A stretch of 64,000 nucleotides of DNA from Nocardioides silvaticus (GTDB lineage: Bacteria; Actinomycetota; Actinomycetes; Propionibacteriales; Nocardioidaceae), in assembly GCF_003160695.1 (NCBI RefSeq), contig NZ_QGDD01000002.1:248001-312000 (forward strand). Reading direction: 5' to 3'. Every line of letters starts with the position of its first letter. Position 1 is the stretch's first letter. The translations under genes were made by a program, and so were the position numbers. Below are positions 7,467-28,939 of this stretch, piece by piece. Below the pieces are notes generated by a model. The model was not told the origin of the DNA. It saw only the letters and a program-made list of their open reading frames with translations, and ran no database searches.

Positions 7467-7682
7467 GCTCCGTCCTTCCGGACCCGTCGCCGGGCCCGCC
7501 TGCTGCCTTGAGTGGATGTACTCCGGTGCGCCGAGACTAACCCTGGGGACGGCTCGGATCCGGTTGCGTCTCCGGCGTGTGGCGATCTGTCGACAATTCT
7601 CACTCGCCACAACTGTGCAACCTTGCGGCCGGTCGCCGCGTCCACTCGTCGACACAGCATCGACGACCCGGAGGACAACCAG

Positions 7683-8240
7683 ATGAAGACCCGATCCGGC
7701 GCCTGCGCCGGCGCACTCCTCGCCCTCGTGGCAGCGCTCGGCCTCGGCCTGAGCCCCACCCCCGCAAGCGCACACGCGGCCCACCCCGAGCACCCCGACG
7801 GCGCGCACCGCGTCGTCTACAAGGGCGACGGCGTGAAGGTCTGGCGCAAGTCCGGGCAGCTCGACCGCCTGGACGACACCTCGAAGCCGTTCCGCAAGCT
7901 GGTCCGCTCCGAGCTCGACCGGATGTGGGAGGAGTGGGCCGACAGCGACCCGGACTGCGCGCAGGCCCCGCTGGTGATGGTCAAGGAGTACCGGAACCGG
8001 GTGGCCTTCATCGCCAACCAGGGTGTCTTCTCCGGCGGCCCGGGCGACGCGCCCGGCTCGTGCGCGTCGGGCGGCGCGTACCACTTCTACGTGAAGCGGG
8101 ACGGGAAGTGGAAGGCCCCGGACGCGCTCGGCGGGCAGGACATCATGCGCTGCAGCGTCCTCCGGAAGTGGGACATCCCGCGGATGAACGGGGCCCGCAC
8201 CTGCCTCCGCGGCGACGAGGTCGTCCGCTGGAACGGGTGA
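7683..8240 (+). CDS. Secreted protein of unknown function
   Basis: 185 residues with a clear Sec signal peptide (MKTRSGACAGALLALVAALG, hydrophobic core to about residue 27, A-S-A-H-A cleavage region near 32). The mature part is basic and aromatic with four cysteines (DPDC, GSC, MRC, RTC), suggesting two disulfides in the extracytoplasmic space. I do not recognise the family. The segment GGAYHFYVKRDGKWKAPDAL has no catalytic motif I can name. GGAGGACAACC lies just before the ATG. The 216 bp between this gene and sepH must carry both promoters. It converges on the YchJ gene with 7 bp between them. Confidence 0.75.
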   Translation: MKTRSGACAGALLALVAALGLGLSPTPASAHAAHPEHPDGAHRVVYKGDGVKVWRKSGQLDRLDDTSKPFRKLVRSELDRMWEEWADSDPDCAQAPLVMVKEYRNRVAFIANQGVFSGGPGDAPGSCASGGAYHFYVKRDGKWKAPDALGGQDIMRCSVLRKWDIPRMNGARTCLRGDEVVRWNG

Positions 8241-8247
8241 TTCAGCG

Positions 8248-8634
8248 CTAGCGGATCCGCCCGCGGACGTAGAGCCAGGCGCCGTCCTGCCGACGGAAGC
8301 GGCTGACCTCGTGGAGCACGCCCTGCTCGTCGCCCCGTCGGTGATGAGCCCGGAACTCGACGATCCCGTCCCTGTCCTCGACCCGACCGGCCTCGGTCGC
8401 CACGATCTCGAGCCCGACCCACCGTAGGTCGGGGTCGAAGGCGACCGAGGCCGGTCGCGTCGCAGGGTGCCAGGACCGCAGCAGGTAGGACTCGTCGAGC
8501 TCGGCGAAGGCGCTGTAGCGGCTGCGCATCAGCTCCTCGGCGGTCGCTGCCGCACGCTCGCTGCGGCGGAGCGGCCGGCAGCAGTCGCCGTACGGCGTGC
8601 CCGTCCCGCACGGGCAATTGTGAATGCGGGACAT
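8248..8634 (-). CDS. YchJ/UPF0225-family SEC-C zinc motif protein
   Basis: 128 residues. The N-terminal CPCGTGTPYGDCC is a SEC-C-type zinc knuckle, followed by the family signature EELMRSRYSAFAELDESYLL and a C-terminal alpha+beta NTF2-like part (VEFRAHHRRG...VSRFRRQDGAWLYVRG). The function is not established; the family is a widespread single-domain protein. The ATG at 8632-8634 gives the normal MSRIHNCPCG start. Upstream lies the 640-bp palindromic non-coding region, so its promoter must lie in or before that structure. Confidence 0.88.
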   Translation of the reverse strand: MSRIHNCPCGTGTPYGDCCRPLRRSERAAATAEELMRSRYSAFAELDESYLLRSWHPATRPASVAFDPDLRWVGLEIVATEAGRVEDRDGIVEFRAHHRRGDEQGVLHEVSRFRRQDGAWLYVRGRIR

Positions 8635-8707
8635 GATGACGATCCTGGCAGTTCGTGAGGTATCTCGCTGCGCGGGGCTTGGTGAGTTGCGCCGGTCGGT
8701 GTGTGTC

Positions 8708-8931
8708 GGGCGTGGCCTGCCCGGTTCGGGCCGGAGCGGGGCGTGGGCCCCGGTCGGCTTCAAAGCCGGGCCTTTTCCGCCGGCCAGATCAACCAGGGCC
8801 CAGCCGCCCGACGTTCTCGCAACGCCGGTCCCACACGTCGGGACCAGGACACCGCCTTCGAAGCCGGCGGGGCCCGGACTCGCCCACCGGGGCCCACGCC
8901 CCGCACCGGCCAGGGTGGGCAGGCCACGCCC
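8708..8931. repeat. Large imperfect inverted repeat, block 1
   Basis: The left arm 8708-8761 begins GGGCGTGGCCTGCCC and contains GCGGGGCGTGGGCCCCGGT. The right arm 8860-8931 contains ACCGGGGCCCACGCCCCGC and ends GGGCAGGCCACGCCC. The outer 15 bases and a 19-base inner block are exact complements, with a few mismatched bases between. A GGCTTC / GAAGCC step lies further in. The central 98 bases (8762-8859) hold a small GGCTTCAAAGCC hairpin at the left edge. Confidence 0.85.
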
Positions 8932-8992
8932 GCGCCACACCCGGCTCCACGACGGGGTGGATGTGGTTGGTCATGTGCCACGTGGCCGGTCA

Positions 8993-9234
8993 CCGGCGAG
9001 CACGACAGGTGGGAACCCACCCACCCCGAGGGGTCGGTCGTGCTCGCCGGGCGGTGGGGCCGGGAGGTCCAGGTCAAGCGGGAGGGTCGCGCCGGCGGGG
9101 CGTGGATGGGTCTGGCTGCGGCGCCCAGCACCGCGGGAGCGAAGCGACCGCGCTGCTGGGGGACGGATGTGGTTGCCCCGCCGGCGCGAGCCCTCCCGCG
9201 CAGGCCGAGGACCTCCCGGCACCACCGCCCCACC
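8993..9234. repeat. Large nested inverted repeats, block 2
   Basis: The outer hairpin CCGGCGAGCACGAC (8993-9006) pairs with GTCGTGCTCGCCGG (9037-9050) and encloses a small GTGGG-AA-CCCAC hairpin (9009-9020). A second system then follows. GGCGGTGGGGCCGGGAGGTCC (9050-9070) pairs, with one small bulge, with 9209-9232. GCGGGAGGG...GCCGGCGGGG (9078-9100) pairs with 9176-9199. CCCAGCACCGCGG (9124-9136) pairs nearly fully with CCGCGCTGCTGGG (9148-9160). The result is a long cruciform or RNA hairpin. Confidence 0.85.
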
Positions 9235-9274
9235 GACCACTGACCCACACATCAACCCACCAAGCCCCGCGACG

Positions 9275-10609
9275 TCAGTCGCCGAGGACCCGCCTCAGGT
9301 AGTCGTTCGCGAACACCCGGTCGGGGTCGAGCTTGTCGCGGAGGGCGAGGAAGTCGGGGAAGCGGGGGTAGAGGCGGGCGAGGTCGGCGGCGTCCAGGGA
9401 ATGGAGCTTGCCCCAGTGGGGGCGGCCGCCGTGGTCCTTCATCACCGCCTCCATCAGCGCGAAGTAGCGCTCGTGCTCGGCGCGCTGGTGGGTGTGGAAG
9501 GCCAGGTAGAAGGAGTCCCGCTGGTAGGCGGTGGACAGGGGAACGTCGTCCGCGGGGGCGACACGGATCTCGACGGGGAAGGAGATGGTGAGGCCGGAGG
9601 CCTCGAGCATCGCGCGGGCCTCCTTCAGCGCCGCGAGGCCGGCCTCGCGGGGGACGGCGTACTCCATCTCGCGGAAGACCACCCGGCGCTCGGAGGTGAA
9701 GACCCGGTGGGCGACGTCGGTGTAGGTGCGGGGGCCGAGCAGGCGTGAGGCGAGCCGGTTGGCGGCGGGGATGGCGCGCGGGGCGCGGTTGAGCGCGGCG
9801 GTCTGGAGGCCGAAGACCGTGTTGGACAGGAGGTCGTCGTCGAGGCGGTGCCGCCAGCGGGGGAGCGGCTCGGCCCGGGACAGATCGGTGCCCATCCGGG
9901 TGTTGCGCTTGGTGAGCATCCGGTCGGTGTGGGGGAACCAGTACATGTCGACGTGGTCGTGGCGCTCGGTGAGCTCGTCGAAGGTCGCCATCGCCTCGTC
10001 CCACCGCAGCGGCCGTTCCTCGGCGCGCAGGAGGAAGAGCGGCTCGACGGCGAAGGTCACCGACACGAGCACGCCGAGGGCGCCCAGCCCGACCCGGGCC
10101 AGCTCGAGGACGTCGGCGTTCTCGGTCCCGGACGCCCGCAGCAGCTCCCCGTCACCGGTGACCAGCTCGAGGCCGACCAGCTGGGCCGCCAGGCCCGCCG
10201 CCCGACCGCCGGTGCCGTGGGTGCCGGTCGAGATGGCGCCGGCGAGGGTCTGCTCGGCGATGTCGCCCATGTTGTGCAGGCTCAGGCCCAGCTCTTCGAG
10301 GGCGGCGTTGAAGACCTTGAGCTGGGTGCCGGCCCGCGCGGTGACCGTCATCGCGTCCCGGTCGACGTCGGTGATGCCGGCCAGGCCGGCCGGCCTCAGC
10401 ACGGTGTGCTCGGGGCGGGCGATGCCGGTGAAGCTGTGGCCGGTGCCGGCCATCTTGACGGTCTCGCCGCGCTCGGCCGCACGTCGTACCTCCGCGACGA
10501 CGTCGTCGACGTCCGTCGGCGTGACCGAGCGCAGCCCGTCGGCGTGCTCGAGCCCCGACCAGTTACGCCAGGTTGCGCTCGACCCCGTCGACGCCTGCGA
10601 CCTCGTCAT
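9275..10609 (-). CDS. FAD-linked aldono-1,4-lactone oxidase family protein
   Basis: A 444-residue oxidase of the D-arabinono-/L-gulono-lactone oxidase group (VAO fold). It opens with the family start TWRNWSGLEHADG. The FAD-binding PCMH domain covers residues 20-190, with AGTGHSFTGIA, whose His is the usual covalent FAD site, and LAGAISTGTHGTGG. The ALO cap domain follows and includes HVDMYWFPHTDRMLTKRN and GRPHWGKLHSLDA near the end; the HWGK block is the family's substrate-site signature. The true sugar-lactone or alditol substrate is not decidable. The ATG at 10609 lies inside the MFS gene, giving a 47-bp overlap, so the two are probably co-transcribed. Confidence 0.88.
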   Translation of the reverse strand: MTRSQASTGSSATWRNWSGLEHADGLRSVTPTDVDDVVAEVRRAAERGETVKMAGTGHSFTGIARPEHTVLRPAGLAGITDVDRDAMTVTARAGTQLKVFNAALEELGLSLHNMGDIAEQTLAGAISTGTHGTGGRAAGLAAQLVGLELVTGDGELLRASGTENADVLELARVGLGALGVLVSVTFAVEPLFLLRAEERPLRWDEAMATFDELTERHDHVDMYWFPHTDRMLTKRNTRMGTDLSRAEPLPRWRHRLDDDLLSNTVFGLQTAALNRAPRAIPAANRLASRLLGPRTYTDVAHRVFTSERRVVFREMEYAVPREAGLAALKEARAMLEASGLTISFPVEIRVAPADDVPLSTAYQRDSFYLAFHTHQRAEHERYFALMEAVMKDHGGRPHWGKLHSLDAADLARLYPRFPDFLALRDKLDPDRVFANDYLRRVLGD

Positions 10610-11807
10610 GGGACCGCACGTTAGCGGGGACGCGGGTCGCGAGGGCAGCGGCGAGGGCGAGCAGCCCGCCACCGAGCGAGACCAGGTAGGCCTCCGACGA
10701 GCCGACCTCGTCGACGACCACGCCGGCGAGGGCTGCACCGGGGGCGAGCCCGAGGGCGATGCCGGTCTGCAGGAGCATCATCCCCTCGGTCAGCCGGGCC
10801 GGTGGGAGCACCTGCTCCGCCAGGGACATCGCGGCGATCAGGGTCGGCGATATCGCCAGACCCCCGACCAGGAGCACCACGCCCATGACCGGGATGGACG
10901 GGACGAGGACCAGGGGCGCCATCGCGGCGGCCATGCCCAGCGCACCCCACCGCATCCGCACCAGCGGGCCCTGCCGCCAGGTGATCGCGCCCGAGACCAG
11001 GCCGGCGACCAGGCTGCCGAGCGCCCAGACCGCGAGCAGGAAGCCCGCAGCGCCCTGCTGGCCCTCGGCCTCGCTGAACGCGACGGTCGCGACCTCGGCG
11101 GCGCCGAAGAGCACGCCGAGCGCGAACGTCACGACGGTCAGGGTGCCGACGGCGTACCACGGCATCGCCGGACGGACGGCGCCGCCGGTGGGTGCCGGGT
11201 GGACCGGCGGCTCGGTGGAGCGCAGCCCCGCGAAGACGTAGGTGCCGACCAGGCCGAAGCCGAGTGCAGCGCTCAGCCCGGCGACCGGGTGCACGACCGT
11301 GGCGAGCATCGTGACGATGATCGGTCCGAGCAGGAAGACGGTCTCGTCGGCGACTGCCTCGAACGAGAACGCCGTGTGCAACCGCGCCGGGTCGTCCTTG
11401 AGGCAGTGGGCCCAGCGCGCCCGCACGCAGGTGCCGACCGACGGCAGGGAGGCGCCGGCGACGGCGGCGAGGACGTAGGTCGTCACGACCGGCCAGTCCG
11501 CTGTCAGCGACAGCATGGCGAGGGCCAGTCCGGCTCCCCACAGGGTGATCAGCGCGGGGAGCACCCGAGCCTGGCCGAGCCGGTCGAGGAGCCGGCCCTG
11601 GACGACGGCGAAGCCGGCGTTCGCGATCAGCGCCGTCGCGGAGACCGCTCCGGCGAACGCGTAGGAGCCGGTCTCGTGCTCGGCGAGCAGCACGATGCCG
11701 AGGCCGACCATCGAGATGGGCAGCCGGGCGACCAGACCGGTGAGGCTGAACAGCGCAGTCGCCGGCGTGAAGATCCGGCGGTACGGGGCGAGGGCAGAGG
11801 CGAGCAT
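10563..11807 (-). CDS. MFS transporter
   Basis: A 414-residue inner-membrane transporter with about 12 hydrophobic segments and a central cytosolic loop (around LRSTEPPVHPAPTGG, near residue 200). The N-half has the motif-A-like GRLLDRLGQARVLP, as in drug/H+ antiporters; the substrate is unknown. The ATG at 11807 gives MLASALAPYRRIFTPA, a normal cytosolic lead into helix 1. It is the first gene of an overlapping pair with the lactone oxidase. Only 32 bp separate it from the divergent ferrochelatase gene, so the promoters overlap. Confidence 0.85.
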   Translation of the reverse strand: MLASALAPYRRIFTPATALFSLTGLVARLPISMVGLGIVLLAEHETGSYAFAGAVSATALIANAGFAVVQGRLLDRLGQARVLPALITLWGAGLALAMLSLTADWPVVTTYVLAAVAGASLPSVGTCVRARWAHCLKDDPARLHTAFSFEAVADETVFLLGPIIVTMLATVVHPVAGLSAALGFGLVGTYVFAGLRSTEPPVHPAPTGGAVRPAMPWYAVGTLTVVTFALGVLFGAAEVATVAFSEAEGQQGAAGFLLAVWALGSLVAGLVSGAITWRQGPLVRMRWGALGMAAAMAPLVLVPSIPVMGVVLLVGGLAISPTLIAAMSLAEQVLPPARLTEGMMLLQTGIALGLAPGAALAGVVVDEVGSSEAYLVSLGGGLLALAAALATRVPANVRSHDEVAGVDGVERNLA

Positions 11808-26199: not shown

Positions 26200-27001
26200 C
26201 CTGCACCTCCAGGTGCCGGCGTCCGGCGCGAGTGAGCAGCTGTCCCAGCGCGGCGACGGCGACGAGCCAGGCGACCTGCGCGGCTAGGAGGACCAGCGCC
26301 TCGGTGCCGTCCGCCCGACCCGAGATGATGTCGACCGGGTACATCATCATCGACGGGAACGGCGTCGCCTGGGCGAGCGCCTCCAGCCAGGCCGGGAACA
26401 GCCAGATCGGCACGAACAGGCCGGCGAAGAACCCCGAGACCACCATGTAGAGGATCTGGAGCCCGCGGGTCTCGACCAGCCAGAACCCGGGCGCGGCGAC
26501 CACGAGGTAGACGGTGGCGGCGGCGATCGTGATGCCGAGCAGCACGCTCACCGCGCCCAACAGGTAGGCGAAGGGGTCGTCCGGCAGGGCCATCCCGACG
26601 ACCAGGCCGCCGATCAGCACCGAGGGGATGCCGCGCGGGATCAGGTTGAAGATCGCCTTGCCGACCTCGGTCGTGATCGCTGCCGCCTGCACGTCCAGCG
26701 GTCGCAGGAAGTCGACGGCGACGTCGCCGTCCTTGATCCGGTCGGCGATGTCGATCCGGCCGAAGAGGTTGACCGACCCGAGCAGCCCCTGCGACACCCA
26801 GATGTAGGTGCTCATCAGCGCGATGTCGTACCCCTGCAGCTCGCCGCCGGCGGCGCGCACCGTGGCGAAGAGGATCGCGACCTTGAGCAGACCGAAGGTG
26901 GTGTTGGCGACCAAGCCACCGAACGCGGCGAGGAGGTACGCCGACTGCCGCCTGAACCCGGCGACGAGGATGCGCCAGTACACCCTGATCGTCGCTCGCA
27001 T
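26192..27001 (-). CDS. ABC-2 type exporter permease subunit (first)
   Basis: 269 residues with about six membrane segments. DGDVAVDFLRPLDVQAAAIT is the family's conserved cytosolic loop, parallel to the YLRPQPL loop of its partner. It pairs with the second permease and the ATPase. The start is taken at ATG 27001 (MRATIRVYWRILV); an in-frame TTG at 27013 would add four residues. TAGGTT at 27012-27017 lies 10 nt before the ATG, so the leader is very short or absent, which argues against the TTG. It is divergent from an ABC exporter. Confidence 0.88.
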   Translation of the reverse strand: MRATIRVYWRILVAGFRRQSAYLLAAFGGLVANTTFGLLKVAILFATVRAAGGELQGYDIALMSTYIWVSQGLLGSVNLFGRIDIADRIKDGDVAVDFLRPLDVQAAAITTEVGKAIFNLIPRGIPSVLIGGLVVGMALPDDPFAYLLGAVSVLLGITIAAATVYLVVAAPGFWLVETRGLQILYMVVSGFFAGLFVPIWLFPAWLEALAQATPFPSMMMYPVDIISGRADGTEALVLLAAQVAWLVAVAALGQLLTRAGRRHLEVQGG

Positions 27002-27011
27002 GAGAGACAGC

Positions 27012-27051
27012 AACCTAGGCTTGCGTTCAAGTCGACTTCAAGTCCTAGTGT
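27012..27051. promoter_or_regulatory. Divergent promoter region of two ABC transporter units with direct-repeat operator
   Basis: 57 bp separate the two starts. The minus-strand -10 is TAGGTT (27012-27017) and the plus-strand -10 is TAGTGT (27046-27051). Between them TTCAAGTC occurs twice, at 27026-27033 and 27037-27044. The copies are 11 bp apart, one helical turn, and they overlap a perfect AAGTCGACTT palindrome. One regulator here could control both units. Confidence 0.6.
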
Positions 27052-27058
27052 CGAGCAC

Positions 27059-28939
27059 ATGAGCATGGAGTCGATCGCGTGGAACCAGCTGTACCGGCGG
27101 ATGAGCGCGCCGGACGAGAGCCGCGCCTTCACCGCCGCAACCGCCCGGCGGATCCTCGAGTTCGCACGGCCGCACCGGCGCAAGCTGATCGGCTTCATCC
27201 TCCTCAGCGTGGCGGGCGCCGCGCTGGCCGTGGCGACCCCGGTGCTGGCTGGCCGGGTGGTCAACTCGATCGTGGCCGGCGACGAGCCGCGGGTCGTGGT
27301 GCTGCTGGCACTGGTCATCGGCGGCGTCGCCGTGCTCGACGCGGCGATCGGGCTCGTCACCCGGTGGCTCTCGTCAAGCATCGGCGAGGCGCTGATCCTG
27401 GACCTGCGCACCGCCGTGTTCGACCACGTCCAGCGGATGCCGATCGCGTTCTTCACCCGCACGCGGACCGGCGCGCTGGTCAGCCGGCTCAACAACGACG
27501 TCATCGGCGCCCAGCGCGCGTTCAGCAGCACCCTGTCCGGCGTGGTCGGAAACCTCGTGATGCTCGTCCTCACGCTCGTGGTGATGCTCGGCATCTCCTG
27601 GCGGGTCACGCTCCTCGCGCTGGTGCTGCTTCCCGTGTTCGTCGTGCCGGCGCGGCGGATGGGCAACCGACTGGCTGGCATCCAGCGCGAGGCGGCCGAC
27701 CACAACGCCGCGATGGGCAACCAGATGACCGAGCGGTTCTCCGCGCCCGGCGCAACCCTGGTCAAGCTCTTCGGCCGCCCCGACCACGAGTCGGCCGAGT
27801 TCGCCGCGCGCGCCCGGCGGGTGGCGCAGATCGGTGTCCGGACCGCCCTGGTGCAGACGACCTTCGTCACGGCGCTGACGCTCGTCTCGGCGCTCGCGGT
27901 GGCTCTCGTCTACGGCCTCGGCGGCTACTACGCCCTGACCGGCGGGCTCGACGCCGGCGACGTGGTGGCGCTGTCGCTGCTGCTCATCCGGCTCTACGCC
28001 CCGCTCACTGCCCTCGCGAGCGCGCGGGTCGAGGTGATGGCGGCATTGGTGAGCTTCGAGCGGGTCTTCGAGGTGCTCGACCTCGAGCCGCTGATCCAGG
28101 ACCGGCCCGGCGCGCGGGACGTGCCGGAGGGCCCGGTGGCCGTGGAGCTCGACGACGTGCGGTTCTCCTATCCGTCGGCGGACCGGGTCTCGCTCGCGTC
28201 CCTGGAGGAGGTGGCGACGCTGGACGCACGTGGTGGTGAGGAGGTCCTCCACGGCGTCACGCTGCGGGCGGAGCCGGGCCAGGTGGTCGCCCTTGTCGGG
28301 TCCTCGGGGGCCGGGAAGTCCACGATCGCCCAGCTCGTCTCGCGGTTGTACGACGTCGACGCGGGCGCCGTCCGCCTTGCCGGCGTCGACGTGCGCGATC
28401 TCTCTGCGGCGGCGATCCGGGACACGGTCGGCATGGTGACCCAGGACGGGCACCTCTTCCACGACTCCATCCGCGGCAACCTGCTGTTCGCGCGGCCGGA
28501 CGCGTCGGAGGAGGAGGTCTGGGACGCGCTGGAGCGGGCGCGCCTGGCGGACCTGGTGCGGTCGCTGCCCGACGGGCTGGCCACCGTCGTGGGGGAGCGC
28601 GGCTACCGCCTCTCCGGAGGCGAGCGGCAGCGGCTGACGATCGCCCGCCTGCTGCTGAAACGGCCGCGAGTGGTGGTCCTCGACGAGGCGACCGCCTCGC
28701 TCGACTCGACCTCGGAGGCGGCGGTCCAAGCGGCACTCTCCGAGGTGCTGGCCGGCCGGACCGCGCTCGTCATCGCGCACCGGCTCTCGACCATCCGCAC
28801 CGCCGACGTCATCCTCGTCGTCGAGGACGGCCGGATCGTCGAGCGCGGCACGCACGTCGAGCTGCTGGCGGCCGGCGGCCGCTACGAGGAGCTCTACCGC
28901 ACCCAGTTCGCGGAGGCCGGCGACGAGCTGCCGGCCTGA
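27059..28939 (+). CDS. ABC exporter, fused membrane and ATPase domains
   Basis: 626 residues. Six membrane helices (about 35-320; conserved QRMPIAFFTRTRTGALVSRL coupling region) are fused to an ATPase domain with Walker A GSSGAGKST (about 415), signature LSGGERQRLTIARLL, Walker B VVVLDEATASLD and switch His IAHRLSTI. It is a half-transporter that works as a dimer. The group is MsbA/LmrA-like; lipid or drug export is plausible but the substrate is unknown. Residues about 375-400 contain an insert before the ATPase domain (DRVSLASLEEVATLDARGGE). TAGTGT ends 7 nt before the ATG (leaderless). Confidence 0.92.
   Translation: MSMESIAWNQLYRRMSAPDESRAFTAATARRILEFARPHRRKLIGFILLSVAGAALAVATPVLAGRVVNSIVAGDEPRVVVLLALVIGGVAVLDAAIGLVTRWLSSSIGEALILDLRTAVFDHVQRMPIAFFTRTRTGALVSRLNNDVIGAQRAFSSTLSGVVGNLVMLVLTLVVMLGISWRVTLLALVLLPVFVVPARRMGNRLAGIQREAADHNAAMGNQMTERFSAPGATLVKLFGRPDHESAEFAARARRVAQIGVRTALVQTTFVTALTLVSALAVALVYGLGGYYALTGGLDAGDVVALSLLLIRLYAPLTALASARVEVMAALVSFERVFEVLDLEPLIQDRPGARDVPEGPVAVELDDVRFSYPSADRVSLASLEEVATLDARGGEEVLHGVTLRAEPGQVVALVGSSGAGKSTIAQLVSRLYDVDAGAVRLAGVDVRDLSAAAIRDTVGMVTQDGHLFHDSIRGNLLFARPDASEEEVWDALERARLADLVRSLPDGLATVVGERGYRLSGGERQRLTIARLLLKRPRVVVLDEATASLDSTSEAAVQAALSEVLAGRTALVIAHRLSTIRTADVILVVEDGRIVERGTHVELLAAGGRYEELYRTQFAEAGDELPA

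Follow-up and report, generated by a model that had tools for sequence, protein, structure and literature searches.

The element between ychJ and the lactone-oxidase gene

The window, by which we mean the whole 64-kb stretch of DNA that was analysed, belongs to a Nocardioides silvaticus genome of 4.51 Mb in 26 contigs (G000, the host genome). Between ychJ and a D-arabinono-lactone oxidase gene, flanking genes that the original prediction had named and that are borne out at 8248-8634 and 9275-10738 on the minus strand, it carries a non-coding element built of nested palindromes, with the following features.

8248-8634, minus strand: ychJ, its start codon 31 bp from the element
8666-9271, no strand: whole element (copy L001), 606 bp, aligned with five other full copies of the host genome
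8666-8689, plus strand: left terminal inverted repeat CGCTGCGCGGGGCTTGGTGAGTTG, of which 8671-8689 pairs with 9253-9271
8698-8941, no strand: hairpin 1, arms 8698-8758 and 8882-8941, homologous in both species that carry the element
8959-8969, plus strand: motif GGATGTGGTTG, copy 1
8993-9050, no strand: hairpin 2, perfect 14-bp arms
9049-9230, no strand: hairpin 3, z = -10.2 folded as DNA, 0 of 200 shuffles as good
9077-9206, no strand: 130-bp core of hairpin 3, found within other arms in four shorter elements
9104-9115, plus strand: motif GGATGGGTCTGG, related to GGATGTGGTTG
9165-9175, plus strand: motif GGATGTGGTTG, copy 2
9253-9271, minus strand: right terminal inverted repeat, 95% complementary to the left one
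9275-9277, minus strand: TGA stop of the lactone-oxidase gene, separated from the element by 3 bp
9275-10738, minus strand: D-arabinono-lactone oxidase gene

The palindromes that had been predicted at 8708-9234 are real and go beyond chance. Inverted arms pair at 8698-8722/8917-8941 (88%) and 8729-8758/8882-8911 (93%) in hairpin 1, at 8993-9006/9037-9050 (100%) in hairpin 2, and at 9049-9070/9209-9230 (95%) and 9084-9101/9175-9192 (94%) in hairpin 3, and the stretch 8665-9277, when folded alone, reaches z = -14.1 (RNA) and -12.6 (DNA), unmatched by any of 20 shuffles either way. Two nested blocks are present as described, 15 bases do pair exactly, as GGGCGTGGCCTGCCC/GGGCAGGCCACGCCC, and the sequence said to be common to both blocks is a direct repeat, GGATGTGGTTG, present in each. 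The proposed extent, however, has to be revised: an outermost inverted pair, 8671-8689/9253-9271 (19 nt, 95%), had been overlooked, and because this pair closes the palindromes we take 8666-9271 as the full unit. Its left end is set by CGCTGCGC, shared with the other full copies, whereas its right end is unlike that of the other five, which reads CATCAAGCC(CC)GCGCAGCG; the right terminal repeat of the window copy looks converted to the left-end sequence.

In a fold scan of all 64 kb (510 windows of 250 bases, 12 shuffles each), 9001-9250 was the best-folding of all (z = -8.5). Hairpin 1 was inconspicuous there, since its arms span 244 bases and a 250-base window seldom contains both; among the 14 windows listed, only 8876-9125 (z = -3.2) touches block 1. 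Second in the ranking was 8251-8500, in ychJ (z = -8.1), and a 23-nt arm pair, 96% complementary, lies within the ychJ coding sequence at 8379-8462.

Neither a hidden conserved protein nor the remnant of a mobile gene, both of which had been considered for this region, left a coding trace. Indels between full copies of the element are mostly of one base, so that no reading frame is kept, and a Pfam search gave no match for the four open frames of the window element. A search for tRNA genes in the window element gave no match either.

A repeat family in the host genome

The original prediction called for a search for homologues, and copies exist both in the same genome and in one other species, G025. 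The host family has 14 members, namely six full copies, one deletion derivative, four shorter relatives and three fragments, the last added by a search with one short element as query. The full copies are 597-606 bp long and 93.0-98.3% identical and are located beside different genes; the deletion derivative (348 bp) is missing the left part. Only the 130-bp core of hairpin 3 is common to the four short elements and the full copies, and the two short elements with both ends complete measure 293 and 313 bp. Among the full copies the ends agree, with CGCTGCGC on the left and, except in the window copy, GCGCAGCG on the right. The pattern CGCTGCGCN{0,4}GGCTTG occurs 15 times in the host genome, 15 of 15 at family members, compared with one occurrence of the reversed-pattern control. 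From these comparisons the family appears to be modular, with constant ends and core and with arms that vary. The GC content is 73-78% in the 17 copies from both species. Short GGTCTCGACAAGCTCGACCA-type repeats, which we take to be a separate, commoner actinobacterial repeat, adjoin family members to the left of L040 and L008.

Relatives in a second species

In searches that covered first 147 and later 215 genomes of the genus, clear relatives were found in one other species only, G025, and in an order-wide sample 2 of 391 genomes were carriers, both in this genus. The number of candidates scored per genome was two in the 215- and 391-genome searches and four in the 147-genome search, so that relatives with diverged sequence could have escaped. 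Another 25 genomes of the genus gave weak matches (E 3.5e-6 to 9.4e-4), which were set aside as chance similarity of GC-rich DNA, and three matches to an exact 22-mer in genome contigs were taken as chance because their self-complementarity did not exceed the best of 20 shuffles. A 403-bp stretch in G143 (L150, 874-1276; ends CGCTGCGCGGGGCTTGG...GCGCAGCG) was not counted, its self-complement score being 63 against 66 for the best shuffle; it folds with z = -2.9, 0 of 100 shuffles being as good, and is a possible distant relative. Phages and plasmids gave no match to the element at E 1e-5, and viral contigs none to two exact element patterns.

G025 has seven copies of 685-708 bp, each located with both ends. 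Against the window copy, the best match reaches 67% over 293 bp, covering hairpin 1 and the outer stem, beyond which the copies of the two species hardly align. The G025 unit is close to a single whole-length palindrome: L146 matches its own reverse complement from end to end at 75%, the local self-complement score is 345 for L146 (at most 84 in 10 shuffles) and 326 for L171 (81 in shuffles), and L146 folded with its near flanks gives z = -26.8. The host copies, in contrast, are palindromic by block and not throughout, with scores of 102 (L001) and 113 (L005) against shuffles of up to 95 and 91. Palindromes of several hundred base pairs are generally unstable in bacteria. Non-autonomous repeats so large and so palindromic are therefore odd, yet seven persist in one genome.

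The ends of the G025 copies carry additional structure. In 12 of 14 ends, a perfect hairpin with 6 bp or more lies at or outside the conserved one, with seven different stems among the 12, and all 12 terminal hairpin loops read TNC (GNA on the other strand). Stems of at least 7 bp with a T-run are found at 6 of 14 ends; a control of 30 fetched G025 loci (93,647 bases, 93.6 kb), mostly coding, gave none outside the elements, its two hits being copy L149 itself. Beyond the terminal hairpins, the right flanks of L146 and L147 have about 60 bp more in common (GCCGAGGCAGAT...GGCCGGTCGTTCCCGGCGC), which may represent one more layer of the element on its outer side. At the left end of L165 the element start is duplicated in tandem (CCGCGCTTCGCGCGGGTTGGGTTGGTGGG twice).

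The number and arrangement of copies bear on the suggestion that such palindromes could mark the chromosome as a replication, nucleoid or gyrase site. Six to seven dispersed full copies per genome, long palindromes, and an orientation shared by six of the seven G025 copies on their contig would all suit a landmark. The spacing in G025 is uneven, however, with two copies at 2.690 and 2.745 Mb, most compared sites are not conserved between the species, and 213 of 215 genomes of the genus are without a clear relative; we regard a landmark role as very improbable.

Occupied and empty sites

A comparison of orthologous sites indicates that most copies differ in position between the two species. The G025 counterparts of the host sites L002 and L003 align straight through (74% and 67%) with no element, and at the L006 site the same two genes are separated in G025 by a 101-bp spacer instead of the element. 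Inspection by eye shows an ordinary hairpin in this spacer, following the stop codon; the host genome has no counterpart of it. Altogether, 3 of the 9 host sites compared were without the element in G025; for L004 the flanks lie 3.4 kb apart there, and for L009 the spacer is about 240 bp. No usable flank pair was found in G025 for L001 (the window copy), L008, L010 or L011. In the reverse direction, four of the five non-shared G025 sites compared (L147, L148, L149 and L165) lack the element in the host genome, and for L157 only the left flank has a good match. The host counterpart of L147 lies in the window itself at 26832-27197, with the flanks 3 bp apart and the element absent. More distant relatives also have sites without the element: L004 in G008, L006 in G018, G009 and G004, and L007 in G014 and G002.

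Two sites are occupied in both species, one behind polA and one behind an isochorismate-synthase-like gene, both genes being named from a reading of their proteins. At the polA site (L005/L171) the copies have the same orientation, the left flank is 91% identical, and the right flank is 84% identical and lies about 510 bp further out in G025. At the other site (L007/L146) the flanks are 87-89% identical and the element orientation is opposite. Orthology of the polA-site copies was considered and rejected, L005 and L171 being no more similar than L005 and the remaining G025 copies, which points to concerted evolution or separate insertion. The shared sites are thus either old and homogenised, one of them having flipped, or preferred insertion sites. 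As evidence against mobility, they fit old inheritance plus homogenisation no less than they fit two insertions.

Target-site duplications, which had been proposed as a sign of mobility, did not appear. In the 17 copies with defined ends there was no direct repeat of at least 4 bp at the junctions; the longest was 3 bp, which does not exceed what mismatched flank pairs show. The lack of target duplications could reflect old age of the copies, and identity at the aligned empty sites is only 67-88%.

Position behind stop codons

In the host genome, every one of the 14 family members has a stop codon no more than 24 bp away (12 by script and 2 by reading). The scripted distances are 3 bp for L001, 0 and 19 for L002, 23 for L003, 0 for L004, 0 and 11 for L005, 3 for L006, 1 for L007, 3 for L008, 24 for L009, 5 for L010, 12 for L011 and 3 for the defined end of the C16 fragment, and in three members the distance is 0. 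By reading, a TGA lies 7 bp before the C24:209k fragment and a gene ends 16 bp inside the C24:180k fragment; at L006 the left neighbour gene terminates 11 bp within the element. Four ends were placed by eye, the left ones of L008, L011 and the C16 fragment and the right one of the C24:209k fragment, which affects the distances of 12 bp (L011) and 0 (C16). As a control, 744 of 12,819 called intergenic positions in the window (5.8%) are as near a stop, a value from crude gene calls that is too low, perhaps twofold, because these calls missed ychJ and probably other genes. In G025, a stop lies 24-43 bp from the conserved terminal hairpin in five of the seven copies; the exceptions are L147, which stands between divergent genes, and L165, which has no called stop nearby.

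This position has a bearing on termination. The original prediction held that the region does not fit a terminator, but the copies may act as terminators, since they stand at terminator positions. In the window, no hairpin plus T-run was found at 8500-9400 under a rule of 5 T in 8, which is stricter than the rule of at least 3 T applied to the G025 ends. One alternative is that the elements are an array of terminators or insulators whose main function is two-sided termination and whose copies spread and stay alike mainly through recombination and gene conversion rather than transposition. This would account for the adjacency to stop codons and for the extra hairpins at the G025 ends (at 6 of 14, with a T-run and a stem of 7 bp or more), and it is in keeping with the polA-site copies, no more alike than other pairs, and with the left-end sequence at the right end of the window copy. 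Even so, to reach sites that are empty in the other species, units of 600-700 bp require an entry route, and we consider this alternative unlikely.

Stem conservation and strand preference

Compensatory changes in the stems were the other test proposed for a conserved element, and they yielded a mixed answer. The covariation set held 10 of the 13 full copies, six from the host genome and four of seven from G025. Pairing holds in 95.9% of the 660 cells that make up hairpin 1 and the outer stem, compared with 32-45% in slid-partner controls, and 28 cells are changed on both sides against 12.4 in shuffles, a count that none of 500 shuffles reached. When pairs are counted, however, double changes show no excess (8 against 7.3 in shuffles, 236 of 500 as high), and further pair types fall below most shuffles (491 of 500 as high). 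Some pairs are thus changed on both sides, but the evidence that this alignment offers for conserved stems is modest, because the pair count is not above shuffles, the structure was derived from the same alignment and only two clades are represented. The arms of a palindrome may also stay alike through conversion at the DNA level, as is suggested by the left-end sequence that the window copy carries at its right end.

A functional structured RNA, either a 3'-UTR RNA or a small RNA with a fold kept by selection, was among the possibilities raised by the original prediction. The fold is very stable, some stem pairs show double changes, and a location behind stop codons means that the element would be transcribed. 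On the other hand, the better-folding strand is plus in four of six host copies and minus in all seven G025 copies; the lack of a consistent strand preference favours a role at the DNA level, or a two-sided one, over a single RNA. Only 2 of 215 genomes of the genus carry the element, its positions are dispersed and mostly differ between the species, and at one of the shared sites the two copies are in opposite orientation. A search of Rfam 15 gave nothing above the gathering score in 7500-10500 of the window, where two weak hits fall in ychJ, and nothing in copies L146, L010 and L006, one weak L010 hit lying outside the element. A structured RNA as the primary reading is, in our judgement, distinctly unlikely.

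Group IIC introns also sit at gene ends beside terminators. An ORF-less relative of such an intron would share with the element a length of about 600 nt, extensive structure and a 3'-end position. No group II intron model matched at E up to 1 in the window or up to 0.5 in the copies, and the G025 copies are palindromic over their whole length, a feature not known from introns. We consider this origin so improbable that it barely counts.

A probable mobile element and the search for its mover

Our results support a model in which the element is a non-autonomous, non-coding, nested-palindrome mobile element that is moved by a putative enzyme acting in trans, rests behind stop codons and possibly serves there as a two-sided terminator. 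We hold this to be the probable explanation, and the mobile-element option that the original prediction had listed among others gains from copies at unrelated places, common ends and relatives' sites without the element. Copies have come to occupy new genome sites, as the unrelated sites and the orthologous sites without them show; the enzyme would presumably recognise the folded hairpin ends, and the copies would then settle in 3'-end spacers directly behind stop codons, which is where they stand. The hairpins there may act as transcription terminators for the genes on both sides, and the elements may be either tolerated at gene ends or used in this way. Folding as a single strand may be part of the process.

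The search for a mover covered known enzymes and possible parents. The Y1/RAYT transposase domain (PF01797) was found in none of 22 genomes, both hosts among them, and in 5 of 14 control genomes. No element with the same ends plus an internal gene was found with the end pattern in the host genome or with a 113-bp end in G025; these searches returned only family members and the seven known copies, respectively, and a parent insertion sequence that was lost or had diverged ends would escape them. A more specific proposal is that the copies represent a class of mobile DNA moving in the form of a single strand folded on itself, nearly palindromic over its whole length and with mini-hairpin ends of three-base loops, and that it homes to the hairpin behind a stop codon and replaces the native terminator by means of an enzyme unlike Y1/RAYT transposases. 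We think this proposal rather unlikely. The pair of species with filled and free sites opens a route to asking how the elements move without a known transposase, what keeps the copies similar, and whether transcription of genes such as polA comes to be terminated by them.

Comparison with known repeat systems

The family is best read as similar in behaviour to MITEs and REPINs, and as belonging to neither as defined, being set apart by the descriptions of both. MITEs are characterised in the relevant part of one account as typically shorter than 500 bp and typically AT-rich, with terminal inverted repeats of about 4-30 bp and with direct repeats in younger copies (PMC10969869). Like them, the present elements are non-coding, multi-copy and intergenic, have terminal inverted repeats and stable stem-loops, and would depend on an enzyme supplied in trans, which for this family is assumed. 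The terminal repeats agree with this description: the window copy has a 19-nt pair (95%), and the other five full copies have CGCTGCGC/GCGCAGCG as inverted ends. In contrast, the full copies are longer (597-606 and 685-708 bp), although the short subfamily (293 and 313 bp) would pass; the composition is 73-78% GC rather than AT-rich; direct repeats exceed 3 bp in none of 17 copies; the searches by matching ends found no parent insertion sequence; and the G025 copies are near-palindromic over their whole length.

REPs, as far as the description in PMC3733652 extends, are 20-40 bp long with a GTAG or CGTC tag, and many are associated with RAYTs, although some families have no dedicated RAYT; GTAG REPs are reported to contribute the stop codon of the gene next to them in some cases. 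Circular or excised junctions are reported for REPINs (PMC3116915). The accounts of REPs and REPINs in PMC3116915 and PMC3733652 suggest a likeness in the extragenic location, the inverted hairpins at both ends and the nearness to stop codons, and L006 and the C24:180k fragment may supply a neighbour's stop codon in the manner described for GTAG REPs. Relative to the lengths given there, the palindrome of the present family is at least 15 times longer, and its copies are few. Its ends are also different from the REP tags, being CGCTGCGC in the host genome and short hairpins in G025, and the 22 genomes without a Y1 transposase include both hosts. SPRITE and BOX are repeats of Streptococcus pneumoniae, of which SPRITE is called terminator-like in the passage of PMC10969869 that treats them. 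To judge from that passage, they resemble the present family as small dispersed repeats, SPRITE with terminator-like hairpins, and differ from it in host and sequence, the window copy having no hairpin plus T-run.

Our literature search, judged from titles and the opening lines of abstracts, found no published description of this repeat family. We conclude that it is a new, narrowly distributed and hyper-palindromic family at gene ends, and most likely a mobile one. A short motif, GGATG, mostly followed by NGGTT-like bases, recurs in elements of both species, at 8959, 9104 and 9165 in the window and at several positions in L146 and L157 of G025.
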